Of a stretch of 36,149 nucleotides of DNA, positions 81-34,313 are shown one piece after another. Made by a program: the position numbers and the translations under genes. This DNA is from a virus, in IMG/VR virus record IMGVR_UViG_3300036791_000692, positions 1 to 36,149 of that record; one strand, given 5' to 3'. Position 1 is the stretch's first letter; every line of letters starts with the position of its first letter. The notes beneath the pieces are model-generated. The model did no database searches. It had not been told where the DNA came from and saw only the letters and a list, made by a program, of their open reading frames with translations.

Positions 81-563
81 ATGGGCGCGCGCGGCCCGGC
101 TCCGAAGCCGACGCGGCTGCGGGTGCTGCACGGTGACCACCCCGAGCGGGTGAACCGGCGCGAGCCGCAGCCTGCCCGCCTGCCGGTGGTGATGCCCGAG
201 TGGCTGTCGCCGGTGGCGGCTGGCAAGTGGGGTGACCTGGCGCCGCACCTTGAGGCGATGGGGGTGCTGTCTGCTGCGGACGTCGACGTGCTGGCTGCGT
301 ACTGCGAGTGTTATGCGCGGTGGCGGCGGCTGGTGGAGCTGGTGGTGCAGTCGCCGCCGGTGTTCCGTCGTCGTGCGGGCGGGGATGACCCTGATGCGAC
401 GGTGCTGGTGCGTAACCCGTTGTGGTCGCAGGTGCGGGACGCGGAGGCTGCGCTGCGGGTGCTGGCGCGGGAGTACGGGTTCACGCCGAGCGCGCGGTCT
501 GGGATGCGCGCTGAGGCCGGCCTGGCGGGTGCTGCGGAGCGGCTGCTGAATGGCGACCGGTAG
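81..563 (+). CDS. terS: Terminase small subunit, P27 family
   Basis: 160 aa. TerS recognises the phage packaging site and delivers DNA to the large subunit. The N-terminus has the P27-family opening (MGARGPAPKPTRLRVL, then a HPERVN-type stretch and an EPQPARLP proline-rich segment). It is followed by a helical region with the family's PEWLSPVA-W-L-PHLEAMG pattern and a C-terminal helical part. The length is typical for actinophage P27 proteins. It starts at the ATG at 81 with GGTGAG upstream and overlaps the large terminase start by 14 bases, so the two are translationally linked. In a circular view the HNH endonuclease gene lies directly upstream, a common partner of P27 terminases in HK97-like packaging. 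Confidence 0.9.
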   Translation: MGARGPAPKPTRLRVLHGDHPERVNRREPQPARLPVVMPEWLSPVAAGKWGDLAPHLEAMGVLSAADVDVLAAYCECYARWRRLVELVVQSPPVFRRRAGGDDPDATVLVRNPLWSQVRDAEAALRVLAREYGFTPSARSGMRAEAGLAGAAERLLNGDR

Positions 564-5253: not shown

Positions 5254-7367
5254 GCCGACCGCCAGGTCAGGGTCACCGAACCGGACCCGGTCGCGTACAG
5301 CGACCACGACGCCGACCCGAGCGGCGGGACGAGCAGCGGCACCGAGCCGGGCAGCACATAGCTCGCGCGGCTGGTGCCCGCGCCCGCCCACGCGCTCAGC
5401 GTCGAGGTGTCCAGCGAGATGGACGTCCCGGCCGGGACCGCCGCGAGGTAGATCGTGTTGCCGGTCGCGTTGTCGACCAGCCGTGACGCTGACAGGTCAC
5501 CGCTGTACGTCGCGATCACCGGGGCCGGCACCGCGCCCGCGTTCGCGAGCGTGGCGTTGTTCGGCAGCGACGTGACCGCGTAGAGGCGCTTGTAGGCGCG
5601 CACGTTGGAGCCCGTCGGGTACGCGCTGAGCGCGGCGATCACCGTGTTCCACGACAGCCTGCTCCACTGCGTGTTGCCGCTGTTGCCGCCGAACGTGGTC
5701 CACCCGGCCGGGTTGCTGACGTCGTTCTGGCCGCTGGAGACGATGCACACGATGTTCGCGGAAGGGATCGGCAGCGCGATCGTCGCGGACGGCGCGGTGC
5801 TGTTCGCGATCGCGGTCGCCGCGGCGCTGTAGGCGCCCGAGCCCTTGAACCCGTACGCGGCGGTCATGAACAGCGCCGGGGTGTCCGCCGTGACCGTGAT
5901 CGCGGAGCCCGCGCCGAGTGCCCGCGCGTTCGGCGCGACGAACGTGTGCTGGTCGGTGGTCGCGGACCTGGCCCGCGCGGCCTCCTGCCAGAGGTTGCCC
6001 GCGCTGTCGGTCACCGTCAGGCGCACCGCCCGGTCGGCGTTGATCGCGAGCATCCCGCAGTCGCCGGCGTCGATGGCCGCGTGGCCGAAGTTCGGCGGGA
6101 TGGTGAACGACAAGCGCGTGCCGCCGGGCACCGCGTACCCGTACTGGTAGCCGCTGACCGTGCCCCCGGTCGCGAAGCCGAGCAGGGTCATCGCCGAGTC
6201 GTACGCGCTGCCCTGGGCGGCCGAGGTGACGGTCGTCTTCCACGTGCTGTAGGGGCGCCCGACCATGCCGCCCGACACGCTGCCGCGCGTGGTCAGGTCG
6301 CTGGTGACGTGGTAGCTGGTCAGGCCGGGCGGCGTGCCTGGCTGCTGCCCGCCTCCCCCGGCCATGACGCACAGCAGGGCTGTTTGCGGGGTCTGGAGCG
6401 CGACCGCGCAGGACGGCTGCGCGGAGTTCCCGGTCGCCGCCGCGGCGCGGACGAACAGCCCGTAGCCCTTCAGCCCCATGCACGACGCGCTGACGACCGC
6501 CTGCCCGCCGGTCGTCAGCGTCACCGTCACCGTGTCGGCCGCGCCGAGCGCCTTGATGTTCGGGCAGTAGAACACGTGCGTGTCGAGGCCCGCGACGGTC
6601 GCGCGCGGCAGCTCAAGCCACGCATTGCCCTGCGAGTCGGTCACGGTGACCGCCGACGCCACGTCGAGGAAGACGTGCACCTCGCCGGTGTCCCCGGCGG
6701 TGATCGTCTGCGACGTCCAGTTCGGGGTGATCGTGACGACCTTCGAGACGGCGGTGGACCAGCCCCACCCGTACGCGGACGGGGGCGTGGCGGTTGCCGC
6801 GAACACGCCGAGCTGCTCAGTCCACGCGGCTGCTGCGCCGAGGGGCGGCGGCGCGATCGCGGTGCTGGGCGCCGTGCCGTAGGTCCAGCCGGTTGACCCA
6901 GTGGCGAAGTTCGACAGCGTGACGCTGCTCTGCGCCCCGTACAGGCGCGGGTCCACGGCGGTCAGGGTGACCTGGAACGAGAACATGAACGGGCCGGCGA
7001 AGGTGTGCTTCAGCCCGTCGCTGTCGCAGCGCACCCGCGCCGTCATCGAGCGGCCGGCGGCGTCTGGGATGACCAGGTCGGCCGGGTACAGCGACGCGGC
7101 GCGCATGACGAGCTGGTCGCGGAACAGCGCCAGCGCGCCGGGCGGGCCGGCCGCCGCCCCGGTGAGCACCACCGTCCGCGCCGCTGCGGTCTTCGGCCCG
7201 CGCACCGCCCCGTCGGCGAGCACCAGCGCCACGTCGTTGCCGGTGTAGTCGGGGCTGTCGTACCAGCCGGCCACGTCCTCGATCAGGCAGAGCACCCCGT
7301 CGCTGCGCTCGGTCAGCGGGTTGAGCGCCAGGCCGTCCCAGGTGACCGGCGGGCTTGTCGTCGTCAT
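5244..7367 (-). CDS. Distal tail protein (Dit-like) with duplicated insertion domains
   Basis: 707 aa, more than twice the size of a simple Dit. Residues 1-160 look like the Dit N-domain (TWDGLALNPLTERSDGVLCLIEDVAGWYDSPDYTG, RTVVLTG, FSFQVTLTAVDPRLYG). Residues from about 610 onward look like the usual Dit C-domain (ATGNTIYLAAVPAGTSISLD, LLVPPLGSASWSLYATGSGSVTLTWRSAW). Between them lie two related modules of about 210 residues. They share VTDSQGNAWLE/VTDSAGNLWQE (near residues 240 and 450), ALGAADTVTVT/ALGAGSAITVT and MGLKGYGLF/YGFKGSGAY. Such insertions in Dit proteins often bind host surface glycans. ATG at 7367, overlapping the tape measure stop. Confidence 0.8.
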   Translation of the reverse strand: MTTTSPPVTWDGLALNPLTERSDGVLCLIEDVAGWYDSPDYTGNDVALVLADGAVRGPKTAAARTVVLTGAAAGPPGALALFRDQLVMRAASLYPADLVIPDAAGRSMTARVRCDSDGLKHTFAGPFMFSFQVTLTAVDPRLYGAQSSVTLSNFATGSTGWTYGTAPSTAIAPPPLGAAAAWTEQLGVFAATATPPSAYGWGWSTAVSKVVTITPNWTSQTITAGDTGEVHVFLDVASAVTVTDSQGNAWLELPRATVAGLDTHVFYCPNIKALGAADTVTVTLTTGGQAVVSASCMGLKGYGLFVRAAAATGNSAQPSCAVALQTPQTALLCVMAGGGGQQPGTPPGLTSYHVTSDLTTRGSVSGGMVGRPYSTWKTTVTSAAQGSAYDSAMTLLGFATGGTVSGYQYGYAVPGGTRLSFTIPPNFGHAAIDAGDCGMLAINADRAVRLTVTDSAGNLWQEAARARSATTDQHTFVAPNARALGAGSAITVTADTPALFMTAAYGFKGSGAYSAAATAIANSTAPSATIALPIPSANIVCIVSSGQNDVSNPAGWTTFGGNSGNTQWSRLSWNTVIAALSAYPTGSNVRAYKRLYAVTSLPNNATLANAGAVPAPVIATYSGDLSASRLVDNATGNTIYLAAVPAGTSISLDTSTLSAWAGAGTSRASYVLPGSVPLLVPPLGSASWSLYATGSGSVTLTWRSAWQ

Positions 7368-10300
7368 CGCATGCCGCCCTGCGCCGCCCAGTTCATCGTC
7401 CGCGAGACGGCGGCGGCGATCTCGGTCTCCGACTGGCTTTCACGCGGGTGCACGTTGATGGTGACGGTGCCGTACCGGGCCATCCGCTGCCCGAGCTGCT
7501 GCTCCTGCAGCGAGCGGGCGCTGGCTGCGCCCCGCGCGCTGGTGTGGGTGACGGTGGAGTACCCGCTGCCCGTCGCGTACGTGCGGGTCGTCACCGTCGA
7601 GGGGTGCGCCAGGTGCTGCAGGTGGGCCAGGTGCGCGAGGTGCGCCAGGTGGGCCAGGTGCAGCGCGTGCGCGTCGAGGCGGACCGGCGGGCGCGCGGCG
7701 CGCGGCACCGCTGCGCCGGGGCGCTGCCCCACCACGACGCTGCCGAGCGGGTGCGCGGTGAGCCCGGCGGCGTGCGCCATCGCCCCGACCACGACGGACC
7801 CGAGCGGGTGGCTCAGCAGCCGGTACAGCCTGCGGAGCTGCTCGGCGTTGAGCACCATCTCGGGGCCGGCCTCGCCGAGGCTGTAACGGTCGCCGCTGAG
7901 CTGGCCGACGCCGAGGACCGGCTCCCCGATGACCCCCCCGGCCGCGTACCCGTGCCCGTGCCCGAGCACGTTGCCGATGTTGCGGCCGTAGCGCGCCAGG
8001 GCATACGCCACGGCAGCGTACGTGTTGGCGAGCGGGTCAAGTATGCCCCTGCTGCGCAGCGGCCCGGCGTACGCGGCGAATGTCGACGGGATCACCTGCA
8101 TGAGCCCCTGCGACGGGTGGCCTGCCGCGGCGTTGGAGTCCCAGAGGTTGATCGCGTTCGGGTTGCCGCCCGACTCGGTTTGCATCTGCGCGAGGATCAG
8201 CCCCTGCAGCTCGGGGTGCCCGAGCATGGCCAGCGCGGTGGCGACGGTCCCGGCCCACTGCTGCACGCCCGCGCCGGCCTTGACGGTGGAACTGGTCACG
8301 CCGGTGATCTTGCCGATCAGGCCGCCGAGCCAGCCGGTTGCCTTCGAGGCCAGGCTGCCGAGCGCGGACAGCGCCTTGCCGGGTAGCTTCGCCAGGTCCA
8401 GCAGCCCCTTGCCGAGCGCGCTGGCCAGCGCCTGCGGCATCCCGCCGAAAATCTTCGTGACCAGGCCGCCGAGATCCTTCGCGCCCGCCCACATCCCGCC
8501 GAACAAGCTCTTGATCAGGTTCAGGCCGATGCCCGCGAACACCGTCGACGGGCTCTTGATGCCGAAGAACTTCTTCACGTTGCTGACGATCGGGTCGATG
8601 ATCTGCGCCTTGACCCACTTGTCAACGCCCTTCCACGCGGCGGCGACCCCGGCCTTGAGGCCGCGCAGCAGGTCGCCGCCGACCTTCCCCGCTGCGGTGA
8701 CGATGTCCTGCCAGCCCTTGCTGAACAGGCCGGAAATCCAGGTCCAGATGTCGGTGAGCGGCTGCTTGATCGCGTCCCACACGGTGGACAGGACTTTCTT
8801 CCATACGTTGAGCTCGTCGGTGGTGAACCTGACGACCCACTTCCACACGGTCGAGAACACCGATTTGATCCAGCCGAGCGCCGCGCTGAGCGGCTGCTTG
8901 GCCGCGTTCCAGACCGCTGTCAGGATCCGCGCCCACACGTTCAGCACGGCGCGGGTGTACGACACGAGCCAGTTCCAGGTCACCGTGAACACGCGCTTGA
9001 TCCAGCCGAGCGCCGCGCTGAGCGGCCCCTTGATCACGTTCCAGACCGCCGTCAGGACGCGCGCCCACACGTTCAGCACGGCGCGGGTGTACGACACGAG
9101 CCAGTTCCACACGGCGGTGAACACCGACTTAAGCCAGCCGAGCACGGCCGTCAGCGCGGTGCGCACGCCCTTCCAAACGCCCGTGATCGCGCCGCTGATC
9201 GCGTTCCAGGTGACCCGCGCGACGGTGGCGAGCAGCTTCCACACGGCGGTGATGTACGGGCCGAACCAGTCCCACAGCAGCTTCGTCGCGGCCTTGATCA
9301 CGATCCACGCGAGCAGGATCACCGCGCGGATCAGGATGAACTCCACGAACACGATCGTCTTGATGACGGCGACCGCGATGCGGATGGTCTCCGCGATCAC
9401 CTTCCACGCGACTTTCGCGGCGACGACGATCGCGTCCCACACGACGCTGATCACGTGCCCGATCGCCCCGAAAACCTCCTGCGCGACGGCTGCGATCCTG
9501 CGCCACACCGGGATGGTGTACTGACTGAGGTGGTCGGAGAACTTGCTCACCGCGGCGGCGGCGACGGCGAACATGGGCACCAGCCAGTTCAGTGCCTTCG
9601 CGAGCCACAGCAGCGGGGTGGTGAGCCACAGCAGCACCTTGCCGAGCAGGTTAAGCGCCCAGCCGAGGATCGGCATCAGCAGCTTCAGCTCGACGCCGAC
9701 CATCTTGAACCAGACCACGATGACGGCGCCCAGTATCTTCCCGAACGGCACCAGCAGCGCGGCGATCCGCGTCACGATCGGGGCGAGGTTGTCGCCGATC
9801 ACCTTCGCCAGCATCATGACCAGCGGCACGATCGTCTTGAACCCGACGACCAGCCCGAGGAACACCGGCTTGAGCGCGCCGATCACGTCTTTGGCCAGCC
9901 CCATCACGGCGGTGCGGAACTTGGGTGAGGCAACCATGAACAGCCCCATCGCGGCGACGGCGGCGAGCACGACGGGGTTAAGCGACGCGGCTGCCACCTC
10001 CCCGCCCTCGGCCTCAGCGCCGCCCGACAGCGCCCCGGGCAGCACCCGCCCGAGGCTGGCCTTGCCGACTTCCCCGATTTTCTCGACCACCTTGTCGAGC
10101 GGCTTGGTGATGCCCTCCAGCAGCCCGCCGACGATCGGCAGCTCCTCGAACAGCTTCAGCCCGCCCAGCGTGGTGCCGACCGCGCCGAGCGCCAGCCCTG
10201 CCGCCCCGTACTTCTGCACGGCTGCGGTCGCGGCGGGCAGGTGCTTGGGATCGGCGAGCTTCTCGGCGTAGCCGATCATCTTGTCGAAGCCCTTGTTGAC

Positions 10301-11236
10301 CGCGTCCAGGGCGGGCGCGAGCGACTTCATCAGCGCGTTAGTCAGGGGCGTGACCAGCGGCGCGAGCTTCTCCATCAGCTCGGCGAACTTGTTCGCCCAC
10401 GTGATCGCCAGCCCGCCGCCGTCCTTGCCGACGAACGGCTCCACGATCGCGGAGCCGACGCTGGTCATCGCTTCCTCGATGTGGTTTTTCGCGCCCTCCC
10501 ACGTGTTGCCGACTGCTGCGGCCTGCCCCTTGTAGGTGATCTCCATCTGCTGCGTGATGATGGCGAGCGCCTTCTGGCTGTCGAACGTCTTCGACTTGAT
10601 GTCCTTCTGCACCTGCGCGACCGACTCGCCCATGCCCTTCGCCAGCAGCCCCATCGCGTCGATGCCGTTCTGCGACAGCAGCGTCAGGGTCTTCGTGCTG
10701 AACTTGCCGGTCTCGTTCACCCGGCCTAGCCCGGCGACGATGGCGGTGATGCTGTCCTTGCCCTTGCCGGTCGCGGCGACGGCGTCCTGCACCGCCTGCA
10801 GGGTGGGCACCACCTGCTCGGCCTTGAACCCGAACGCGAGCATCTGCTTGCCCGCCTCGATGAACGCTTCCTTCGGGAACGGGCTGACCTCGGCGAGCGC
10901 GGTAATGTGCTCCATCATGTCGGCGGCGGCCTTGTCGGTGCCGAGGACCGCCTTCATCGCGCGCATGCCCTGGTCGTAGACCTTGTTGTACGCGAGGCCG
11001 GCCTTCACCGACTCCACCGCGAGCCCGGCCACGCCCGCGCCAGCCAGCGCGACCACGCTGCCGATCGCCTGCCCGCCCATCTTCACGCCCGAGCTGATGC
11101 CGCGCCCGATGTGCCGTGACAGGGTGTTGCCGGCTTCTGCGCCGGCGTGCTCTGCGCTGTCCTTGACCTCCTTCTCCAGTGACTTCGTGTCGGCCGAAAC
11201 CTTCACCGACAGCCCGGCGTACGAGTTTTCAGGCAT
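7364..11236 (-). CDS. Tape measure protein with lytic transglycosylase domain
   Basis: 1290 aa, setting tail length and acting in DNA entry. The N-terminal third is helical with the usual TMP region (VSADTKSLEKEVKDSAEHAG, GISSGVKMGGQAIGSVVALAG). The middle has long hydrophobic helices (residues 400-650), then tryptophan-rich repeats with a 44-residue period (WNWLVSYTRAVLNVWARVLTAVW). Residues about 985-1070 form a transglycosylase SLT domain: QTESGGNPNAIN carries the likely catalytic Glu near 1019, followed by SQGLMQVIPSTFAAYA, so the tail can probably open peptidoglycan locally. The C-terminus has His-Leu-Ala tripeptide repeats (about 1185-1208) and two HPLGSVVVG copies. Confidence 0.93.
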   Translation of the reverse strand: MPENSYAGLSVKVSADTKSLEKEVKDSAEHAGAEAGNTLSRHIGRGISSGVKMGGQAIGSVVALAGAGVAGLAVESVKAGLAYNKVYDQGMRAMKAVLGTDKAAADMMEHITALAEVSPFPKEAFIEAGKQMLAFGFKAEQVVPTLQAVQDAVAATGKGKDSITAIVAGLGRVNETGKFSTKTLTLLSQNGIDAMGLLAKGMGESVAQVQKDIKSKTFDSQKALAIITQQMEITYKGQAAAVGNTWEGAKNHIEEAMTSVGSAIVEPFVGKDGGGLAITWANKFAELMEKLAPLVTPLTNALMKSLAPALDAVNKGFDKMIGYAEKLADPKHLPAATAAVQKYGAAGLALGAVGTTLGGLKLFEELPIVGGLLEGITKPLDKVVEKIGEVGKASLGRVLPGALSGGAEAEGGEVAAASLNPVVLAAVAAMGLFMVASPKFRTAVMGLAKDVIGALKPVFLGLVVGFKTIVPLVMMLAKVIGDNLAPIVTRIAALLVPFGKILGAVIVVWFKMVGVELKLLMPILGWALNLLGKVLLWLTTPLLWLAKALNWLVPMFAVAAAAVSKFSDHLSQYTIPVWRRIAAVAQEVFGAIGHVISVVWDAIVVAAKVAWKVIAETIRIAVAVIKTIVFVEFILIRAVILLAWIVIKAATKLLWDWFGPYITAVWKLLATVARVTWNAISGAITGVWKGVRTALTAVLGWLKSVFTAVWNWLVSYTRAVLNVWARVLTAVWNVIKGPLSAALGWIKRVFTVTWNWLVSYTRAVLNVWARILTAVWNAAKQPLSAALGWIKSVFSTVWKWVVRFTTDELNVWKKVLSTVWDAIKQPLTDIWTWISGLFSKGWQDIVTAAGKVGGDLLRGLKAGVAAAWKGVDKWVKAQIIDPIVSNVKKFFGIKSPSTVFAGIGLNLIKSLFGGMWAGAKDLGGLVTKIFGGMPQALASALGKGLLDLAKLPGKALSALGSLASKATGWLGGLIGKITGVTSSTVKAGAGVQQWAGTVATALAMLGHPELQGLILAQMQTESGGNPNAINLWDSNAAAGHPSQGLMQVIPSTFAAYAGPLRSRGILDPLANTYAAVAYALARYGRNIGNVLGHGHGYAAGGVIGEPVLGVGQLSGDRYSLGEAGPEMVLNAEQLRRLYRLLSHPLGSVVVGAMAHAAGLTAHPLGSVVVGQRPGAAVPRAARPPVRLDAHALHLAHLAHLAHLAHLQHLAHPSTVTTRTYATGSGYSTVTHTSARGAASARSLQEQQLGQRMARYGTVTINVHPRESQSETEIAAAVSRTMNWAAQGGMR
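8931..9110 (-). repeat. 132-bp-period direct repeat inside the tape measure gene
   Basis: A block of about 47 bases starting at 8931 recurs essentially unchanged at 9063 (GCCCACACGTTCAGCACGGC and onward), 132 bases or 44 codons apart. It encodes the NWLVSYTRAVLNVWAR element. A third, more diverged protein-level copy lies at about 8760-8850. This is internal duplication of the tape measure, which changes tail length by fixed steps. Confidence 0.85.
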
Positions 11237-15373: not shown

Positions 15374-16693
15374 TCAAATGACGCGCTGCGGCGCGGTGCC
15401 TGCGTACGCTTCGAACCGCTCGCAGATCACGTCGCAGTACGCGGGGCTGATCTCGCACCCGTACGCTGCCCGCCCCTCGCGGTGCGCCGCGATCAGCGTC
15501 GACCCTGACCCCATGAACGGGTCGAGCACCGCGTCGCCGGGGTCGCAGTACGCGCGGATGAACCAGGCGGGCAGCGCGACGGGGAACGCTGCGGTGTGGC
15601 TGCCGTCACCGCCCGAGCTGACCCGGATCACGTTGGACGGCAGCGCGAGCCCTGCGCCGCGGCGCGGCGCGGCTTCCTCGACGTACCCCGCGCGCTTGTC
15701 GAGGCGGATGTCGCGGCTGGCGTCGTACCGGAACGCGCTGCCGCTGGCGTGCGCGACCGCCCACGGGTGGTGCTTGACCTTGCCCTTGCCGGGCGCGAAG
15801 TGAAACACCGGCTCGAAGCCGTTCTTGAACCGTTCCTCGAACTTGCCGGGGAACCCGCCGGTGTCCCAGCAGAGCTCGTCGACGAACCGCCAGCCCCACC
15901 GGCGCACGTGCGCGATGGTGAGGTCTTTGACGTACAGGTGCCGCTGCCTGCCCTCGCTGTGCTCCTTGATGTTGACGAACCATGACCCGTCGGCGGCGAG
16001 GACCGCCCGCACGCCGGCCTGCACCGGCTCGAACCAGTCGGCGTAGTCGCCGGGCTTGACCGGCTCGAACCCGGACGGCTGGTCGTAGGTGCGCTGCGCC
16101 GCATATGGGGGGCTGGTGAACGCCAGGTTGGCCGGCGTGCCGCCGAGCAGCCGCGCGACGACGGCGGGGTCGCGGCAGTCACCGCAGATGACGCGGTGCC
16201 CGCCGAGCTGCCAGATGTCCCCCGGCCGGGTGACCGGCACGGCAGGCGGCTCGGGTACCTGGTCGGGGTCGGGGCCGTCACCTGGACCCGCGCCGGGGGC
16301 CAGCAGCGCGTCGAGGTCGCACTGGCCCCACCCGGTCGCGTCGAAGTCGCCGTCCAGCTCGCCGAGGAGCGCCGCGAGGTCCGCGTCGTCGTACCAGCCG
16401 AGGTCGGCGGTGCGGTTGTCAGCCAGGTTGATCCGGCGTGCCTCGTCGTCTGTGCAGGTGACTACCTCGCAGCGTGCCGTCTGGTGGCCTTCGGCCTGCA
16501 GCGCCGCGATGGTGTGGTTGCCGGCGAGCACCACCAGCGCGTCGCCGGTGTCGCGTACCACCACGGCGCGGTACTGCCCGAAGCGCCGGATGCTGGCCCG
16601 GATCGTCTCGACGTTGCCGCGCCGGGCGTTGCCGGGGTAGGGCTGCAGGGCGGCGACGGGCTCGTCGCGGGTGCCCGTCCAGGTCACCGCCAC
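15374..16693 (-). CDS. ParB-domain DNA methyltransferase (SPPY type, likely N4-cytosine)
   Basis: 439 aa. Residues about 10-115 form a ParB/sulfiredoxin-like domain (NARRGNVETIRASIRRFGQYR, VVLAGNHTIAALQAEGH, DDEARRINLADNR). A linker ends with VPVTRPGDIWQLG. The rest is a beta-class amino-methyltransferase: motif IV TSPPY at 193-197, a long target-recognition region, and SAM-binding motif I DPFMGSGST near 391-399. SPPY usually points to N4-cytosine, while DPPY points to N6-adenine. No restriction enzyme partner is seen. The gene lies between scaffold and capsid, six bases after the scaffold stop, an unusual place. A paralogue lies at 33026-34189. The start is GTG 16693, or GTG 16687. Confidence 0.88.
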   Translation of the reverse strand: MAVTWTGTRDEPVAALQPYPGNARRGNVETIRASIRRFGQYRAVVVRDTGDALVVLAGNHTIAALQAEGHQTARCEVVTCTDDEARRINLADNRTADLGWYDDADLAALLGELDGDFDATGWGQCDLDALLAPGAGPGDGPDPDQVPEPPAVPVTRPGDIWQLGGHRVICGDCRDPAVVARLLGGTPANLAFTSPPYAAQRTYDQPSGFEPVKPGDYADWFEPVQAGVRAVLAADGSWFVNIKEHSEGRQRHLYVKDLTIAHVRRWGWRFVDELCWDTGGFPGKFEERFKNGFEPVFHFAPGKGKVKHHPWAVAHASGSAFRYDASRDIRLDKRAGYVEEAAPRRGAGLALPSNVIRVSSGGDGSHTAAFPVALPAWFIRAYCDPGDAVLDPFMGSGSTLIAAHREGRAAYGCEISPAYCDVICERFEAYAGTAPQRVI

Positions 16694-17324: not shown

Positions 17325-18791
17325 TTACGGGGTGGTGCTGGCGCTGGTGTCGGGCTGGCCCGGCTGCGCGCTGGCTGCGTCGATCGGCACCTCGGCCGGC
17401 TTCGCGCCCTTCGGCGGGGCGGGCACGAGCTGCACCGTCTCGGCCGGGCTGGCCTGCAGCATCGCGTTCCACTGGTCGATCTCCTGCGGGGTGGCGCCCC
17501 ACTTCTGCCACAGCACCTCGCGCGGCACCCCGAGGGTCGCCATCTTGACCAGCGCGTCGACGCGCTGCCCTTCGCTGCGGGTCTCCATGTCCGCCCAGAT
17601 GACCTCGGCGCTGGTGTCGGTCGCGGCGGGGCTGCCGGTCAGGGTGAACGCGCACCGCATCACGTCTTCGTATGCCTCGCCGATGTGGCGGCTGCGGCGG
17701 CGGCACTTCGCGACCAGCCCGGTCTCCGCTGCCTTGATCGCGTCGGCGCTGATGTTGACCATCTGCCCGAGCAGGTAGTGCGGCGGCGTCTGCGTGATCG
17801 CGGCGAGCTGCTGGATGTCCTGCTCGACGCTGGCCAGGTACCCGCCCAGCGTCGACTCGGCGAACGAGCCGAACTTGCCGTCTGGTGCCTCGTTGGCGAG
17901 GAGCCGGTTCGCGCCGACGTCGAACGGGCGCGCGACGCGGTAGGTCTCGGTGCCGTCGTCGCTCTTGAACACCTCGCGGGCGATCTTGATCCCGGTGGCC
18001 CAGATCTGCCGGAAGGCACCGTAGTCGGTGGCGACCAGCCGGTTGAAGATCGTCGTGTGGAGCCGGTCCTGGATGCTGACCGCGCTGTGCAGCTCCGACC
18101 GGGGCAGCCACAGCGTGCGGGGCTGCGGCACCACCTCGACCAGCCCGACGAACCCGGCCGGGTTCGGCGCTATCTGCGCGGGGCTGCCCGGCTCCCACGT
18201 GACCACGGCGTCGGGGGTGATCAGCACCTCGATCTCGCCGCCTGCGTCACCGAAGAGGCTGCTGCCGTAGTAGCCGTCCATGGTGACCCACGGCTGCGCG
18301 GGATAGCGCTTGTAACCGGCGATCCGCTTGCGGCGGCTGCCCGGCTCGTACAGCACCGTTGCCTGCATCGCCGACTCGGGGGTTATGCAGACGCCGGTCG
18401 GGTTGTCGTCGTCGGCCTGCACCAGCATGTACGCGGCGCCCTGCACCAGCGCGTCGGTCTGCACCAGCTCGGCGTCAGCGTCGAGGCTGTTCGCCTGCCA
18501 GATCTCCCATGCGAGGTCGGAGTCGGTTTCCGTGCCGAACCGGAACCCGACGACCTGCAGGCGCTCGGCGACGGCGTTGACGACCAGCTCGCACCAGTTC
18601 GCGCCTGACTCCTGCAGGAACGTGCGGAACGTCTGCCGCTCGGCGGTGTCAAGCAGCGCGATGACCCCCGCCTCAAGGTCGTAGTACCGCTGGTAGACCA
18701 GCGCGCGCTGCATCTGGTAGTTGAGCTTCGCAGCGGCCATCGAGCGCAGCTCGTCATAGGGCTGCCCGGCCTGCGCGTCAGCAGGTGCCAT
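17325..18791 (-). CDS. Portal protein, SPP1 gp6-like
   Basis: 488 aa, ATG at 18791. The portal forms the ring at the capsid vertex through which DNA enters. Typical parts are the N-terminal RYYDLEAGVIAL and LQVVGFRFG segment, the wing region with TWEPGSPA and GFVGLVEVVPQPRTLWLPRSELHSAVSIQDRLHTTIFNRLVATDYGAFRQIWATG, and the stem-to-clip part with QLAAITQTPPHYLLGQMVNISADAIKAAETGLVAKC. PPHYLLG followed by SADAIKAAE is a strong portal signature. The end is a Pro/Ala tail. It is the first gene of the long minus-strand morphogenesis operon and diverges from the lysis genes. Confidence 0.95.
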   Translation of the reverse strand: MAPADAQAGQPYDELRSMAAAKLNYQMQRALVYQRYYDLEAGVIALLDTAERQTFRTFLQESGANWCELVVNAVAERLQVVGFRFGTETDSDLAWEIWQANSLDADAELVQTDALVQGAAYMLVQADDDNPTGVCITPESAMQATVLYEPGSRRKRIAGYKRYPAQPWVTMDGYYGSSLFGDAGGEIEVLITPDAVVTWEPGSPAQIAPNPAGFVGLVEVVPQPRTLWLPRSELHSAVSIQDRLHTTIFNRLVATDYGAFRQIWATGIKIAREVFKSDDGTETYRVARPFDVGANRLLANEAPDGKFGSFAESTLGGYLASVEQDIQQLAAITQTPPHYLLGQMVNISADAIKAAETGLVAKCRRRSRHIGEAYEDVMRCAFTLTGSPAATDTSAEVIWADMETRSEGQRVDALVKMATLGVPREVLWQKWGATPQEIDQWNAMLQASPAETVQLVPAPPKGAKPAEVPIDAASAQPGQPDTSASTTP

Positions 18792-24425: not shown

Positions 24426-24483
24426 CCCGGATGCAGCTACCGGCAAATAGCTGCCCCGGATGCGGCTACCGGCAACTAGCTGC
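24426..24483. repeat. Two tandem 29-bp repeats with inverted symmetry (operator-like)
   Basis: Copies at 24426-24454 and 24455-24483 differ at only two or three positions. Each holds an inverted repeat of seven bases around eight (GCAGCTA ccggcaaa TAGCTGC in the first, GCGGCTA ccggcaac TAGCTGC in the second). Helical phasing of about 29 bp and the internal dyads fit two binding sites for a dimeric regulator. They could also form two RNA hairpins in the leader of the early operon. Confidence 0.65.
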
Positions 24484-24601
24484 CTTCTGTACCGCCCGAG
24501 CGTGAACGTTCCGCCGGGTGAAGGGCTCAATTCCTGGCGGCTGCCTTATGCCATTCCAGGGCGTTCGAAATCACCCGCACCACGCACCCGTGACACACCG
24601 G

Positions 24602-27935: not shown

Positions 27936-28285
27936 GCCGGGGCAAGGGGCTCGCCGCGCCCGCATGGGTGGCGCAGTGGCTTCGCCCGTGGTGGCCCGCT
28001 GCGGAGAAGACGCCGAATAGCCGCCCGGGCCGCGACCTGCTCGGCACGCCGGGGGTCGCCATCGAGGTCAAGACGAGCAGCGAGTGGCGCCCGCTTGCGT
28101 GGATGAAGCAGGCAGCCAGGTACCCGCAGCCGGGCGAGGTCGCGCTGCTGGTGTACCTGCCGCGCGGGTTCGGCGCGATGGCTGTGGGCGATGCGATGGC
28201 GATCATGCGCCTGCGCGAGCTGATGCCGCTGCTGGTGGCTGCTGGCTACGCGCCAGCACCGACAAACGACCAGGAGGTGACCTGA
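27932..28285 (+). CDS. PD-(D/E)XK nuclease, probable Holliday junction resolvase-like
   Basis: 117 aa from ATG 27932. SRPGRDLLGTPGVAIEVKTSSEWRPLAWMKQAAR contains the D-(x)n-ExK nuclease core: D in GRDLLG and E/K in AIEVKT. Then come ALLVYLPRGFG and a C-terminal helix (AIMRLRELMPLLVAAGYAP). Small proteins of this pattern in actinophages are annotated as endonucleases or resolvases. With the exonuclease and annealing protein upstream, a junction-cleaving role fits. Its stop shares TGATG with the initiator start. Confidence 0.65.
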   Translation: MSRGKGLAAPAWVAQWLRPWWPAAEKTPNSRPGRDLLGTPGVAIEVKTSSEWRPLAWMKQAARYPQPGEVALLVYLPRGFGAMAVGDAMAIMRLRELMPLLVAAGYAPAPTNDQEVT

Positions 28286-29490
28286 TGTGGTTCCGGATCG
28301 ATGACACGTTCCTGTTCCACCCGAAGGCGGCCGGGCTGTCGAATGACAGCCTCGCCACGTGGGCGCGGGCGGGCGACTGGTGCGGCTGGCAGCTCACCGA
28401 CGGGGTGGTGCCGCGCGAGCTGCTGACGATGCTGGCGGGCGACGCAGCCGACCCGGCGTGGGTCGCCGCGGACCTGGTTCGGCGGAATCTGTGGGAGGGT
28501 GCGCCCGGCGGATGGCTGTTCCACGACTGGTCGGACTGGAACCCGACGCGTGCGCAGGTATTGGCCCGGCGGGCGGCGGTCGCGGAGCGGAAGCGGCGGC
28601 ACATGGCGCAGCACCGGGACGCCGTTACAGGACGCGTTACCCACGGCGTTCCGGGTGGCGTTCCGGGACGGCGTTCCGCACACCGTTCCGGAACGCGTCC
28701 CATCGCGGGCGGTCAAACGGTCAACGCCGTTCCAGCTAGCGTTCCGGGACGCGATAGTAACGCGTCCGGGAACGCGTCCGGGAACGGCGTTCCGGATGGC
28801 GTTACCGCAGCGACCTGCGACGACGGGGCGGGTAACGCGTCCGGGAACGGCGTTCCGGAACGCGATGGTAACGCGTCCGGGAACGCAGGCTGGAACACCG
28901 GCCCGACCCTGTCTTCTAGTGGTACTACTTCTCTCTCAGGTGCAGGTGCGTCAGGCGCGCACGCGGACGGGGGCGCGGGCGGGCGCGCGGGCGCACGCGA
29001 GGCGTCACCCGCCGAGGGAGAGACCGACTTGCCCTCGGTGGTGATCCACGAGGTCAGGTCGCAGACCGGCGGGCTGGTCATCGGGCGCGAGCGCGCCGCG
29101 CAGATCGCAGCCGAGATCATCGGCGACCGGCGGCTGACCGCCCCGTCGGCGTACGTGCGGAAGGCGATCCGCTCGCACCCCGACGTCTTCGCGCTGGCGG
29201 GTGCGCCGCCGGCCCCGGACCTGCCGAGCACCCCGCCGGGCAAGCGGCGGGGCGTCGCGGACGTGCCCGCCCCGGACGCGCACCACGCGGCGCTGACGGT
29301 GGACGGGCGGGCGCGGGGGTCGGTGGCGACCGACGAGCAGCGCACGGCGCACGCGGCGGCGGCGCGGGCGGCGCTGGCTGCGAAGGCCGCCGGGGCAGCG
29401 GGCGCGCAGCAGGTGCCGCCTGCCGTGTTCGCGCCCGGCGGGATCGTCGACGTGCCGCTGCCCGGCGACCTGGACCAAGACCCGTTCTGA
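28285..29490 (+). CDS. Replication initiator-like protein containing iterons
   Basis: 401 aa from ATG 28285 with CAGGAGGTGA upstream. The N-terminal 110 residues (MWFRIDDTFLFHPKAAGLS, ATWARAGDWCGWQLTDGVVPRELL, WLFHDWSDWNPTRAQVLARRAAVAERKRRH) match the winged-helix N-domain of actinophage replication initiators. Residues about 115-205 are a Gly/Asn/Ser linker with NASGN repeats, coded by exact DNA repeats. The C-domain (VIHEVRSQTGGLVIGRERAAQIAAEIIGDRRLTAPSAYVRKAIRSHPDVFA) may recruit host replication proteins. The layout of N-domain, iteron-bearing linker and C-domain parallels lambda O. No helicase or loader is visible nearby. Confidence 0.75.
   Translation: MWFRIDDTFLFHPKAAGLSNDSLATWARAGDWCGWQLTDGVVPRELLTMLAGDAADPAWVAADLVRRNLWEGAPGGWLFHDWSDWNPTRAQVLARRAAVAERKRRHMAQHRDAVTGRVTHGVPGGVPGRRSAHRSGTRPIAGGQTVNAVPASVPGRDSNASGNASGNGVPDGVTAATCDDGAGNASGNGVPERDGNASGNAGWNTGPTLSSSGTTSLSGAGASGAHADGGAGGRAGAREASPAEGETDLPSVVIHEVRSQTGGLVIGRERAAQIAAEIIGDRRLTAPSAYVRKAIRSHPDVFALAGAPPAPDLPSTPPGKRRGVADVPAPDAHHAALTVDGRARGSVATDEQRTAHAAAARAALAAKAAGAAGAQQVPPAVFAPGGIVDVPLPGDLDQDPF
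28759..28940 (+). other. ori: Probable replication origin: four identical 16-bp iterons plus AT-richer flank
   Basis: AACGCGTCCGGGAACG occurs exactly at 28759-28774, 28771-28786, 28834-28849 and 28870-28885. Related GCGTTCCGG elements lie at 28646, 28658 and 28671, with a CGTTCCGGAACG palindrome at 28684-28695. Directly after the last iteron, 28911-28940 is about half A+T in a very GC-rich region. Four iterons beside an AT-richer stretch inside the initiator gene is the lambda origin design. Function is inferred. Confidence 0.65.
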
Positions 29491-29516
29491 ACCCGATCAC
29501 CCCGATGGAGGAACCG

Positions 29517-29963
29517 ATGCACCCTGACGCTGAGCCCCGCTGGATGTCGATCGCGCTGGCGGCCGAGGAGACCGGCGTGACCGAGCGGTCGATGCGCGCC
29601 TGGCAGCGCGCCGGGCTGATCCCGGTGCGGCACGTGGGGCACCGCGTGCTGGTCGACGCGACGGAGGTCGCGCGGCTGCTGCCGGGGCTGCCGAGGCACC
29701 GCCACCAGCCGCTGATGCGGGGGCTGGCTGGACCGCCGCCGCCGGCGGGGCTGGTGGTGAGCTGGCCCGAGGTCGAGCTGCTGCTCGGGGCGCTGCGCGA
29801 CGCTGCGGAGATGCGGGCGGCGCTGTGGGCTGCGCTCGGCGGCGAGCTGTCGGCGGACGCGAACATGGACCGGGCGGCGCGGTACGCGCTGCTGTGCGCG
29901 CGGCTGAGCATCGCGCGGGACCGGTGGGCGCTGGCGGCGGCGTCCGCGGCGGTGACCTCGTGA
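29517..29963 (+). CDS. MerR/excisionase-type HTH protein
   Basis: 148 aa from ATG 29517, with GGAGG at 29507-29511; an in-frame ATG at 29505 overlaps that site. The N-terminus holds a HTH_17-type winged helix (SIALAAEETGVTERSMRAWQRAGLIPVRHVGHRVLVDATEVARLL). A Pro-rich linker leads to a helical C-domain (WPEVELLLGALRDAAEMRAALWAALG, DRAARYALLCARLSIARDRWALAAAS). Such proteins act as excisionases or regulators. If it is the recombination directionality factor, it lies far from int, as in many serine-integrase phages. Confidence 0.7.
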   Translation: MHPDAEPRWMSIALAAEETGVTERSMRAWQRAGLIPVRHVGHRVLVDATEVARLLPGLPRHRHQPLMRGLAGPPPPAGLVVSWPEVELLLGALRDAAEMRAALWAALGGELSADANMDRAARYALLCARLSIARDRWALAAASAAVTS

Positions 29964-30334
29964 ACGGGTTCACCTGCCCGCGCTGCGGGCGCACGAGCTG
30001 GCTCCCCGACGACGTGCTGTCGGGGTACTGCGGGGCGTGCCATGACTGGACCGGGACCGCTGACCTGCGGCGGCTGCGGTTCCGGATCTACATCGAGCAG
30101 GTGCTCAAGGACGAGCGGTGGGTCAGCCTGGACGGCGACTTCCCGCAGCGGGCGGCGTGGGTCGGCGTGCGGCACAACGCGCTCGCGGCGGCGGCTGATG
30201 GTGCGGGGCTGCGGTGGCACGTCGAGGTCTACGACCCCGGCAGGCACCCGGCGTTCGCGTACGCGCGTTTCGGGACGGACCCCGACGCGATGCAGTGTCC
30301 GATTCAGATCGATACACGGGAGGACCAACCATGA
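29960..30334 (+). CDS. Small zinc-ribbon-like hypothetical protein
   Basis: 124 aa from GTG 29960 (GTGA overlap). The start FTCPRCGRTSWLPDDVLSGYCGACHDWTG has CxxC and CxxC spaced as in a zinc ribbon. The rest is alpha-beta (RFRIYIEQVLKDERWVSLDG, WVGVRHNALAAAADGAGLRWHVEVYDP). The zinc-ribbon start is common in small actinophage early proteins. No defined function. Ends four bases into the next gene (ATGA). Confidence 0.7.
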   Translation: MNGFTCPRCGRTSWLPDDVLSGYCGACHDWTGTADLRRLRFRIYIEQVLKDERWVSLDGDFPQRAAWVGVRHNALAAAADGAGLRWHVEVYDPGRHPAFAYARFGTDPDAMQCPIQIDTREDQP

Positions 30335-30690
30335 TCACCTGCGAAGTCGTGTTCGGGCGCCTCGGCCCCGACGAGATCGCGACGGTCAACGTGTGCGCCG
30401 GGTGCGGGGGCACCGGGCAGCGCGGCGGCGGCGACGCCGCAGACACCCCGGTGGCGTGCGCGCCGTGCAACCAGAGCGGGCGGGTGCAGCAGGCGGGGTA
30501 CGCGTACGCCAGCGCGGACGAGGTCCAGGTCGGCGACGTCGTCGGCACCCCGGCGTCGGAGTGGCGCGGCGCGGGCGAGGGCACGGTGGTGCGGGTCGGC
30601 AGCACGTACACCGGGCAGATGAAGTACCTGACCGGGGTGGTGCTGCCCGCAGCGCAGCGCCCCGAGATGTCGGGGGAGGTTCCGTCGTGA
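30331..30690 (+). CDS. DnaJ-type zinc-finger-like hypothetical protein
   Basis: 119 aa from ATG 30331 with a GGGAGG site upstream. The middle has VCAGCGGTGQRG and CAPCNQSGRV, a CxxCxGxG pair like the DnaJ central zinc finger. It is followed by a beta-type segment (DEVQVGDVVGTPASEWRGAGEGTVVRVGSTYTGQMKYLTGVVL). It may bind nucleic acid or a protein partner. Tightly coupled to both neighbours (ATGA, GTGA). Function unknown. Confidence 0.65.
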   Translation: MITCEVVFGRLGPDEIATVNVCAGCGGTGQRGGGDAADTPVACAPCNQSGRVQQAGYAYASADEVQVGDVVGTPASEWRGAGEGTVVRVGSTYTGQMKYLTGVVLPAAQRPEMSGEVPS

Positions 30691-31136
30691 CCACGGTGAA
30701 GCTGATGGGGGCGCTGCCCGGCGGCGACAACAACGGCGCATCGGCGATCGGCGCGGACCTGGTCCGCGACCCGAAGCGGCTGCACCCGATGATCGTGATC
30801 GTTGACTGCAGGCGCGTGGCGACCGACAACGACACCGGCGAGCAGACCGCGACCGTGCGGGTTCGGCGTATCGAGGCGCTGCTGCGCGAAGACCTGCCCG
30901 CTGCGGAGCGCCTGCTGCGGCGCGCCCTGGAATTCCGCACCGGCAAGGCGGTGCTGCCGCTGGAGCTCGAAGACGAGATCAACGCTGCGTTTCAGCAGCT
31001 CGACTTCGATTCGCTAGCCGAGGTAGACGAGGCCGGCGGCGGCGCTGATCAGCCAAGCGAAGACGATCGCGGCGACAGCGACGACGACGGCGAGGGCGGC
31101 TGCGAACAGGACCCACCGGATAGCGATGACGATTGA
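30687..31136 (+). CDS. Hypothetical early protein with acidic tail
   Basis: 149 aa from GTG 30687. The first 110 residues look structured (KLMGALPGGDNNGASAIGADLV, HPMIVIVDCRRVATDNDTGEQTATVRVRRIEALL, LLRRALEFRTGKAVLPLELEDEINAAFQQLDFDS) and resemble a hypothetical protein common in actinophage early regions, from memory. The last 37 residues are almost all Asp/Glu/Gly. That tail is complementary to a hydrophobic minus-strand frame (31014-31196), so its reality, or that of the antisense frame, is uncertain. It is the last gene of the early operon. Confidence 0.65.
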   Translation: MTTVKLMGALPGGDNNGASAIGADLVRDPKRLHPMIVIVDCRRVATDNDTGEQTATVRVRRIEALLREDLPAAERLLRRALEFRTGKAVLPLELEDEINAAFQQLDFDSLAEVDEAGGGADQPSEDDRGDSDDDGEGGCEQDPPDSDDD

Positions 31137-31154
31137 TCTCACGGGGCGTACGCT
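31126..31154 (+). promoter_or_regulatory. Candidate promoter ATGACG-17-TACGCT
   Basis: ATGACG at 31126-31131 and TACGCT at 31149-31154 are 17 bases apart at the end of the early operon. They share the TGACG core and spacing with the promoters at 18815 and 19854. The unit would drive the small gene at 31248 and perhaps the methyltransferases. A similar TACGCT occurs at 31743-31748 without a good -35 (GTGTCC at 31720-31725). Confidence 0.4.
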
Positions 31155-31247
31155 AGCAAGCGCCACCAGCAGGCACCCGAGGCCGGGCGCGGTCACCCGC
31201 TATGTGTCCCGGCCTGGCCTCGGGTTCGATCGGACGGGGGTCCGCGC

Positions 31248-31640
31248 ATGGCTAGGCGCTCGGGGACGGTCAGCCGCAGCGAGCTGTCGCGGCGGGGCAG
31301 GCGCGAGCCCGGCCTGCCTGCGGCGGGCACGTGGGGGAACGCGAATTACGCGTACCCGCGCGGCGCTGGCGCTGACCGGGGCCAGCGCCCCTCGTACCCG
31401 ATCAGCCCGTCGCACGTGCACGGGTCACGTTCCCGCGCGGCCCGCAGGGACACCGCCGGGTCGCTGTCGACGGTTGACCGGGCGCTGCGGGCGCGTTACG
31501 GGTCGGTGCCTGCCGCGCTCGCTGCGGCTAGCCGCGTCGGTGCCGGGCCAGGCGGCCGGGCCGGCGCGGGTGCAGGACGCCGGGCGGCGGCCCCCGCCCG
31601 GCACGGCGGGATCGTGCCGCAGCGGGCAGCAGCCCGCTAA
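31248..31640 (+). CDS. Hypothetical basic protein
   Basis: 130 aa from ATG 31248, preceded by a G-rich site. Very basic, with ARRSGTVSRSELSRRGRREPG at the N-terminus. The middle SYPISPSHVHGSRSRAARRDTAGSLSTVDRALRARYGSVPAAL resembles the YPI-x-HA-x-ALxR motif of small actinophage proteins of unknown function. The C-terminus is Ala/Gly/Arg low complexity. It could bind nucleic acid. Stands alone between the early operon and the methyltransferase genes. Confidence 0.55.
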   Translation: MARRSGTVSRSELSRRGRREPGLPAAGTWGNANYAYPRGAGADRGQRPSYPISPSHVHGSRSRAARRDTAGSLSTVDRALRARYGSVPAALAAASRVGAGPGGRAGAGAGRRAAAPARHGGIVPQRAAAR

Positions 31641-31826
31641 GGCGCGGCCCGCACGCCGTCACCGGTCACGGCGACTCGCGCGCCGGCCCGATCTGGCCGG
31701 TGACGGCACCGCAGGCCGCGTGTCCGCGTCACCGTGGCGGGGTACGCTGCTGTGCGGGGTACATCGGGGGGAAGAGCCCGGCCTGCCGTCCGCCGGGGGC
31801 CGGGCTTCACCGTGCCGGGGGCCGGC

Positions 31827-33035
31827 GTGGGCGCGCTGACGGGGTGCTCGCTGTTCGCCGGGATCGGGGGCTTCGACCTGGCGATGGGGCGCGCGGGCAT
31901 CAGCGTCCGCGCCGCCGTGGAGATCGACACGGCGTGCCGGGGGGTGCTGGCCCGGCGGTTCCCCGGGACGGCGCTGCTCGGTGACGTCGGGGAGGTGAGC
32001 GCCGGTGACCTACGAGCAGCCGGGTTTGTTCCCGGCCGAGGAATTGTCTGCGCTGGCTGGCCGTGCCAGGGCAACTCGGTTGCCGGGCGTCGCGGCGGCC
32101 TGGCTGACGCACGAACGGGACTGTGGGGGCACGTCGTGCGACTCCTGGCTGCGACACGTGCCCGCTGGTTCGTTGGCGAGAATGTGCCGGGGCTCTTTGA
32201 GGTCAACGACGGCGCTGACTTCGGGCGGGTGCTCGCCGACCTGGATGCGCTCGGGTATGGCGTGGCGTGGCGCGTTCTGGATGCTCAATGGTTCGGAGTC
32301 CCGCAGCGGCGGCGGCGGGTGTTCCTTGTCGGATGTCTTGGAGACGGGACCGCACCTGTCGCGGTACTGCTTGAGCCCGAGGGCGGCGTCGGGCATTCTG
32401 CGCCGGGCCGCACGCCGGGGGCGCGTCCTGCCGGCGGACCTGACGGCGGCGCTGACGGGGCTGGCGGGCAGCGGGACATCGCCTACCCGGTGACCGCGCA
32501 CGACGCGAAGGGCAGCGACGGGACCGCGTCGAGCGGGGTGATCCTGGCGCCTGCGCCGGTGTCGACGCTGCAGGGCGGCGGGCGGCGCGGGTACCGCGTC
32601 GACGCGGAGGGCGCGGCGGGCGGGCAGCTCGTGGTGCAGCCGCTGGCGCTGCGCGGCCGCGAGGGCGGCACCATGCTTGAGGCCGGGGCACCGGGCGATC
32701 CGATGTTCACGGTGCGGGCGCGGTCGGGGTCGTGCTCGTACCCGATGATCGCGGCGGCCCGTCGGCTGGCGCACACGCTGACCGCCGAGGGCGCGGACGC
32801 GAGCGAGGACGGGTCGGGGCGAGGTACCCCGCTGGCGGTTAGCGGGCAGGTGGTGCGGCGGCTGACGCCGCTTGAGTGCGAGCGGCTGCAGGGCTTCCCC
32901 GACGGGTGGACGGCGGGCCAGTCGGACACCGCCCGGTACCGGCAGCTCGGCAACGCGGTGGCGGTGCCGGTCGCTGAGTGGGTGCTGGCGCGGCTGGCTG
33001 CGTACGAGCAGGGCGGCGGCGCGCCGTGGCGGTGA
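31827..33035 (+). CDS. DNA cytosine-5 methyltransferase
   Basis: 402 aa counted from GTG 31827; earlier in-frame GTGs at 31734, 31752 and 31812 are possible. All key C5 motifs are present: I, SLFAGIGGFDLAM; IV, CAGWPCQGNS with catalytic Cys80; VI, VGENVPGLF; VIII, QRRRRVFLVG; a long Gly-rich target recognition region; IX, LECERLQGFPDGWT; X, RYRQLGNAVAVPV. It methylates C at carbon 5 in a target that cannot be read from the sequence. No cognate restriction enzyme is nearby, so it is probably an orphan protecting phage DNA. A second ORF overlaps it (32005-32493). Its stop overlaps the next methyltransferase. Confidence 0.95.
   Translation: MGALTGCSLFAGIGGFDLAMGRAGISVRAAVEIDTACRGVLARRFPGTALLGDVGEVSAGDLRAAGFVPGRGIVCAGWPCQGNSVAGRRGGLADARTGLWGHVVRLLAATRARWFVGENVPGLFEVNDGADFGRVLADLDALGYGVAWRVLDAQWFGVPQRRRRVFLVGCLGDGTAPVAVLLEPEGGVGHSAPGRTPGARPAGGPDGGADGAGGQRDIAYPVTAHDAKGSDGTASSGVILAPAPVSTLQGGGRRGYRVDAEGAAGGQLVVQPLALRGREGGTMLEAGAPGDPMFTVRARSGSCSYPMIAAARRLAHTLTAEGADASEDGSGRGTPLAVSGQVVRRLTPLECERLQGFPDGWTAGQSDTARYRQLGNAVAVPVAEWVLARLAAYEQGGGAPWR
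32005..32493 (+). CDS. Overprinted ORF inside the C5 methyltransferase gene
   Basis: 162 aa in the +1 frame relative to the methyltransferase. GTG 32005 is preceded by a near-perfect Shine-Dalgarno GGAGGTGA at 31991-31998, six bases away. The protein has CSLSDVLETG, then RYCLSPRAASGILRRAARRGRVLPADLTAAL. From memory this resembles a recurring group of phage hypothetical proteins (C-SLS-x-LET, LSPxACxGILRRAxxRGxxLP). The DNA is the same as motif VIII and the following methyltransferase region. It may be a real second product or a by-product of conserved codons. Confidence 0.45.
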   Translation: MTYEQPGLFPAEELSALAGRARATRLPGVAAAWLTHERDCGGTSCDSWLRHVPAGSLARMCRGSLRSTTALTSGGCSPTWMRSGMAWRGAFWMLNGSESRSGGGGCSLSDVLETGPHLSRYCLSPRAASGILRRAARRGRVLPADLTAALTGLAGSGTSPTR

Positions 33036-34189: not shown

Positions 34190-34313
34190 TGACCGCCGCG
34201 CACCCGAAAGTTGTTCTAAAAACTGTCGTGATCTGGCTATATCCACGCAGATGGTCGAGCTAATGTCTGTGCATGGCCGCAAACGAGGCCAGCCCCGATG
34301 AAAGGACACACCC
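34190..34313 (+). promoter_or_regulatory. AT-richer intergenic region with promoter-like sequence
   Basis: 124 bases between the methyltransferase and the next gene, clearly lower in GC at 34205-34245. TTGTTC at 34211-34216 and TATATC at 34238-34243 are promoter-like, but the 21-base spacing is long; alternatives with better spacing have poorer hexamers. It ends with AAAGGA seven bases before the next ATG. Probably an independent promoter for the following gene. Confidence 0.35.

Follow-up and report, generated by a model that had tools for sequence, protein, structure and literature searches.

A putative replication origin written through the linker-coding region of an actinophage initiator gene

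The window analysed here is the whole stretch of 36,149 bases that constitutes a single IMG/VR virus record, and the virus appears to have a host among the Actinobacteria, bacteria of soil type. On the 5' side of the replication initiator gene with which this analysis is concerned, PHROG profiles identify genes for a RusA-like resolvase, a RecT-like protein, an exonuclease, and a serine integrase. Shortly downstream of the integrase gene lie two copies of a 29-bp repeat (24426-24484, 93% matches), which may belong to an operator or an attachment site. The genes for the terminase large subunit (550-2196, plus strand) and the portal protein (17325-18791, minus strand) are located on opposite strands and about 15 kb apart, an order that is unusual for a tailed phage. 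A 132-bp tandem repeat (8832-9143) is found within a long open reading frame on the minus strand (7364-11236), which is probably the tape measure gene, and amid the structural genes one protein with both ParB-like and DNA methyltransferase profiles is encoded (15374-16693, minus strand).

A helicase loader resembling P was not found among the genes from 29505 to 31839, for which Pfam and PHROG searches of a subset of the ORFs returned a helix-turn-helix (HTH) match or none, and no loader or helicase of the SPP1 type was recognised among the window genes tested. Sites matching the DnaA box TTRTCCACA with at most one mismatch are absent from the whole contig, compared with about 4 expected by chance, and a DnaA-dependent origin is therefore not indicated. 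Cumulative GC skew reaches its minimum at base 66 and its maximum at base 34191, with no switch at 28.6-28.9 kb; this measure is uninformative for the origin, as the contig is linear and the skew tracks gene direction. Scans returned no promoter-like sites near the array described below, no terminator-like site, and no Rfam family.

The features of the initiator locus are compiled in Table 1. That the gene encodes a replication initiator, as proposed in a preliminary description of this DNA, is borne out by a match of residues 1-152 to PHROG 2447 ('replication initiation protein', E=7e-32) and by further matches to PHROGs 3926 and 9474, which bear the same designation. Searches with tblastn returned 80 actinophage records, mostly aligned over residues 1-88, and several of these are annotated as RepA-like replication initiators. 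In an alignment of the N-terminal domain with 102 rows, the residues W2, D6, D7, K14, G30, G40, and L64 are invariant, and the AlphaFold2 model obtained with the 102-sequence alignment is a winged helix with a mean pLDDT of 95.8. Among the PDB entries that name a replication protein, the best Foldseek matches of this model are the RepA_N-type initiators 5kbj, 4pql, 4pt7, and 4pta, all of them weak (E 0.07-0.2, TM ~0.5), followed at lower rank by the N-terminal domain of DnaD. The entries 4PTA and 4PT7 are staphylococcal RepA_N-type replication proteins (PMC7145576). In the BFVD, the fold matches annotated phage replisome organisers and their relatives, with an E value of 2e-6 and a TM score of 0.83 for a replisome organiser. 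At the level of sequence, the initiator protein matches no Pfam family at E<=0.01, RepA_N in Pfam is matched neither by the window protein nor by the members of the family alignment, and a profile search of the PDB yielded no relative. Weak matches to PF09681 (Phage_rep_org_N) were obtained for 7 of the 102 family members (best E 0.0027), the window protein not being one of them.

The C-terminal domain was delimited by an iterated search as a region common to 10 homologues. The C-terminal modules vary among the homologues, and the domain of the window protein is one of several interchangeable types. It is modelled as a three-helix bundle (pLDDT 75) for which the fold search found no PDB match, and it would serve in the recruitment of replication proteins. 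The intervening linker peptide (NASGN, GVPG etc.) would mostly be a by-product of the DNA that encodes it.

Table 1. Features of the initiator locus, with positions in the window.
Feature	Position	Strand	Basis or remark
Replication initiator gene, 401 aa	28285..29490	+	Winged helix at the N-terminus, linker encoded by the array, helical domain at the C-terminus
Winged helix-turn-helix domain of the N-terminus, presumed array binder	28285..28632	+	AlphaFold2, Foldseek
Array of 20 [GC]CGTT[AC]C elements, presumed initiator-binding sites	28622..28886	11 on +, 9 on -	Element count
First 16-mer pair	28759..28786 (28759-28774, 28771-28786)	-	Minus-strand elements 12 bp apart
Third exact 16-mer	28834..28849	-	Exact match
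Fourth exact 16-mer	28870..28885	-	Exact match
CCCGACCC, abbreviated equivalent of the (CCCGA)n tract of homologues	28902..28909	+	Sequence
AT-richer segment TGTCTTCTAGTGGTACTACTTCTCTCTCAGG, presumed unwinding element	28910..28940	+	AT content
C-terminal helical domain, aa 248-310	29026..29214	+	Iterated search, AlphaFold2

In the preliminary description, a 16-bp sequence in the linker-coding region, AACGCGTCCGGGAACG, had been regarded as the iteron of an origin. An exact search confirmed its four copies, which read on the plus strand from positions 28759, 28771, 28834, and 28870, and found no other exact copy in the contig; with up to three mismatches there are 11 matches, compared with 0.84 expected. 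Two of the copies, those at 28759 and 28771, overlap, and the reading frame is the same for all four; the 16-mer is therefore to be understood as two adjoining minus-strand elements and not as a unit. The repeating unit is instead a 7-bp element, [G/C]CGTT[A/C]C, which occurs in both orientations. The related GCGTTCCGG elements that had been noticed just upstream are real, but they are part of the same array and not a separate group. Within 265 bp the element is present 20 times, in runs at a spacing of 11-13 bp and in mixed frames relative to the ORF, whereas the remaining ~35.8 kb of the contig contain only 27 copies (0.75 per kb). The array is thus about 100 times denser than the rest and is the densest cluster of its own element within the contig. 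Likewise, the arrays of phages B22, Gudmit, and BritBrat (49.5 of 55.5 kb) are the rank 1 clusters in these genomes.

The coding requirements of the linker do not account for this density. Among 5000 synonymous codon permutations the mean number of elements was 3.6 and the maximum 9, and among 5000 synonymous codon drawings the corresponding values were 2.6 and 8; 20 elements were reached in none of the 5000 sequences of either set. Four identical 16-mers also occurred in 0 of 5000 in either synonymous null. The identical codons of the 16-mers had previously been taken as a sign of selection on the DNA. This conclusion is supported by the synonymous nulls and by the homologues, but the codons by themselves make a weak argument, given that all four 16-mers are read in one frame.

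The window protein has a long branch in the N-domain tree without near relatives. As a search of IMG/VR with this protein alone found no relatives, alignments of its homologues were used, and the family then comprised 440 matching stretches in IMG/VR and 56 loci in GTDB genomes. For comparative analysis, 148 ORFs were collected and reduced to 118 non-redundant genes including that of the window. In the 117 other genes, related elements, most of them GCGTGAC, occupy the same segment, where they follow a 12-bp lattice and are used in both orientations at about equal frequency. Counted on both strands, CGT[GT]AC reaches 13.2/kb at ORF positions +300 to +400 compared with ~1.1/kb in the flanks, a roughly tenfold rise in a profile that is otherwise flat within 2.5 kb. 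Same-strand spacings peak at 12, 24, 36, and 48, and opposite-strand offsets peak at -32/-31, -20/-19, -8/-7, +16, and +28; the opposite-strand offsets in the window include -32, -20, -8, +16, and +28 and thus reproduce the lattice of the homologues. Same-strand spacings of 12, 24, and 36 were counted 149 times, compared with a mean of 32 and a maximum of 44 in synonymous shuffles, and the lattice offsets between strands 159 times, compared with a mean of 13 and a maximum of 27. Since single homologues have only 3-7 elements each, comparing 7-mers with synonymous shuffles gene by gene is a weak test for most of them (16 of 136 at P<=0.01), and a pooled test is needed.

The lattice is kept while element sequences, frames, and peptides differ among the homologues. 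CGTGAC is used in all five stop-free combinations of frame and orientation, resulting in RD, VT, SH, or SR peptides. The class of element is clustered on the N-domain tree, with 17 changes compared with 29.5 after shuffling and none of 200 shuffles as low, although part of this clustering may be due to near relatives and 54 of the 118 genes are without an assigned class at the thresholds used. Such clustering is expected if the N-terminal domain reads the elements. Both the classes of element and the 12-bp statistic were selected with the data already in view, which is a minor worry in view of the effect sizes and of the truncated genes described below. Many homologues carry few elements, and when IMG/VR was scanned for CGTTMC three times in tandem, 12 bp apart, most matches fell in unrelated contigs, with a strong match to the initiator domain at only three loci.

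The strongest evidence comes from homologues that end after the DNA-binding domain (108-125 aa), namely those of Propionibacterium phage B22 (L006) and of loci L016, L058, L071, L074, L080, L081, and L095. The stop codon precedes all of the elements in L016, L074, L080, L081, and L095, the array extends across it in B22, L058, and L071, and the C-tract, where found, is located after the stop. B22 is the cleanest case, in that its C-tract and AT-rich segment, together with part of the array, are not covered by the coding sequence. In B22, L058, L071, L074, L080, and L081, no ORF of at least 60 aa starts for ~150 bp or more past the stop codon, and in L016 an overlapping open frame begins 12 bp past it. 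Because the array lies partly or wholly outside the coding sequence in these genes, it is, as judged from sequence comparison, cis-acting DNA and not a peptide repeat.

In the homologues the array is followed by a C-rich tract and then by an AT-richer or hairpin segment, and this order is kept. With a simple pattern, the C-rich repeat tract was detected in 87 of the 118 genes. It is typically (CCCGA)n and specific for the plus strand, with 175 occurrences of ACCCGA compared with 52 expected. In these 87 genes, the 25 bases after the tract are 47% AT, compared with 35% for the gene and 38% in synonymous shuffles, and the AT peak after the tract exceeds the ORF mean (Wilcoxon P=2e-10). A perfect stem of at least 7 bp within 45 bases is present in 49% of the 65 genes with a long tract, but only in 4% of shuffles and 5% of random windows. 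Small conserved loops, in most cases TAC, TAAC, TAAA, or TGAC, close a variable stem, and in L010, L014, L027, L038, L041, L061, L075, L076, L101, L104, and others the hairpin directly follows the C-tract. Compensating changes were found at 7 of 8 stem pairs in 11 hairpins, with 37 double changes compared with 8.7 after shuffling; these 11 were picked for perfect stems, so that their complete pairing arises partly by construction and the fair test is the stem frequency in the 65 genes. The hairpin is possibly a single-strand site for priming or loading. DnaA-trios were also considered for the AT-rich strand, but this candidate was dropped, as the enriched triplets CTA, TAG, and TAC are equally explained by the hairpin arms.

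In the window this part is reduced to CCCGACCC followed by TGTCTTCTAGTGGTACTACT, and the strong hairpin that is present in about half of the tract-bearing homologues was not found after the C-tract. The AT-richer stretch directly downstream of the array that had been described earlier (28911-28940) is confirmed by its AT content of 53%, which only 0.25% of the 30-bp windows of the contig reach. Gordonia phage BritBrat has the 12-mer TCTTCTAGTGGT of this segment at the corresponding position. The earlier proposal that an origin-like array of sites inside the initiator gene is selected as DNA is thus strongly supported by frame independence, the common lattice, the kept order of the segments, and the continuation past stop codons.

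With its dense two-strand array of sites of 12-bp pitch that ends beside an AT-richer stretch, the region 28622-28940 is origin-like in anatomy. It is very probably the replication origin of the phage, or the initiator-binding core of that origin, inside the coding sequence of its own initiator. In the proposed mechanism, the winged-helix N-terminal domain would bind the elements cooperatively with one protomer per 12-bp step and thereby build a nucleoprotein complex. This complex would strain open the adjoining C-tract and AT-rich segment, after which the C-terminal domain would recruit the host helicase or primase.

The main alternative, to which a low probability is assigned, is that the array is an operator or a partition-type site bound by the initiator or by another phage protein and that replication starts elsewhere. 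Arrays of short sites are also known from parS loci, one example being that of mycobacteriophage RedRock with its eight 8-bp direct repeats (PMC7157519). The contig encodes the ParB-like/methyltransferase protein mentioned above, and autoregulation by binding within the initiator's own gene is compatible with the sequence data. However, the array accompanies a single initiator family in many different hosts, and the C-tract and the AT-rich or hairpin segment beside it would be superfluous for an operator. In addition, no stronger cluster exists in any of four phage genomes, whereas operators are usually repeated in front of several genes, and no promoter-like sites accompany the array. Considerably less probable is an element acting on the transcript, in which the C-rich tract and hairpin would serve in Rho loading, stability, or translation control. 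The plus-strand specificity of the C-tract and the covarying stems in half of the tract-bearing homologues are in line with such a function, but the nearly equal use of both orientations by the array elements points to sites in double-stranded DNA rather than RNA, and the window has neither a strong hairpin nor an Rfam match or terminator-like site. Least probable is a low-complexity NASGN/GVPG linker peptide expanded by replication slippage in GC-rich DNA, which is compatible with four 16-mers in one frame, two of them overlapping, but is at odds with the synonymous shuffles, with the occurrence of elements on either strand and in every frame that is free of stops, and with a constant lattice underlying differing peptides, and is strongly contradicted by the arrays past the stop codons of truncated genes.

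Origins inside initiator genes are textbook knowledge for lambda, SPP1, and RepA_N plasmids, and the origin proposed here can be compared with each of these. In lambda and Stx phages, the origin is located in the middle of the initiator gene O and consists of repeats followed by an AT-rich segment (PMC7466680). The parallel to lambda O that was drawn in the preliminary description is a fair functional analogy with regard to this anatomy. It is an analogy only, as the fold of the window protein matches RepA_N initiators and replisome organisers, and homology to O was not found for the window protein in Pfam, nor was an O-type family among the members of the family alignment. Furthermore, lambda has 4 iterons and Stx phages have 6, in contrast to the 7-bp element here, which is arranged on a 12-bp lattice in either orientation, and the relatives of the window, unlike lambda, have a C-tract and often a hairpin. 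In SPP1, oriL consists of direct repeats within gene 38 (gp38) and an AT-rich unwinding element (PMC6316719), but this phage also has oriR, its own loader gp39, and the helicase gp40, none of which was recognised among the window genes tested. Phage replisome organisers (Phage_rep_org_N, PF09681) have a similar predicted N-domain fold but differ in hosts and GC content.

In structural terms, the RepA_N system of pSK41 is closer to that of the window than lambda O and, on the basis of this comparison, can be regarded as the closest worked-out parallel. The N-terminal domain of pSK41 Rep binds boxes in the middle of its gene, the linker is dispensable as protein, and the C-terminal domain contacts DnaG (PMC5703833). 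For staphylococcal RepA_N initiators such as pSK41 Rep and pTZ2162 RepA, an ori-encoded linker and a C-terminal domain varying by host group have been described (PMC5703833). The window initiator would share with them a winged-helix N-terminal domain, for which the fold matches to RepA_N structures are weak, sites in the middle of the gene, a linker encoded by the presumed origin, and a variable C-terminal domain. In contrast to the four Rep boxes with an A+T-rich centre in pSK41, the window has ~20 short GC-rich elements in both orientations on a 12-bp lattice, and it differs from RepA_N plasmids in being a phage with relatives in high-GC actinobacterial hosts and in the lack of a Pfam RepA_N match. 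The nearest report on actinophages is that of Wetzel et al. (2020) on mycobacteriophage RepA, in which it was suggested that the origin is located in repA or upstream of it, by analogy with lambda (PMC7157519). They reported no repeated motifs in their region, and the HTH of RepA is located at residues 95-132 (PMC7157519). This protein shares the annotation label 'RepA-like' with the actinophage genes. It probably belongs to another family, given the position of its HTH and the absence of cluster A mycobacteriophages among the tblastn matches listed for the window initiator.

The arrangement is thus of a known kind, whereas the actinophage variant appears to be undescribed and is widespread among actinophages; a description of this array was not found in the open-access literature that was searched. 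It is conceivable, although rather doubtful, that the variant represents a distinct origin design. In such a design, the initiator would assemble on a two-orientation array of 12-bp pitch written through the linker in any frame, and a strand-specific C-tract and hairpin (conserved loop C-T[A/G]A[C/A]-G or C-TAC-G) would then serve the host helicase or primase as a single-strand site for loading or priming, with the sites drifting together with the DNA-binding domain. As the anatomy is visible, family-wide, and recognisable, origins become predictable, and testable, in hundreds of actinophages and prophages of this large, understudied group, and small replicons for high-GC bacteria would be a practical use. 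The array also illustrates cleanly how selection at the DNA level writes the linker of a protein, one DNA word being translated as RD, VT, SR, or SH according to its frame.
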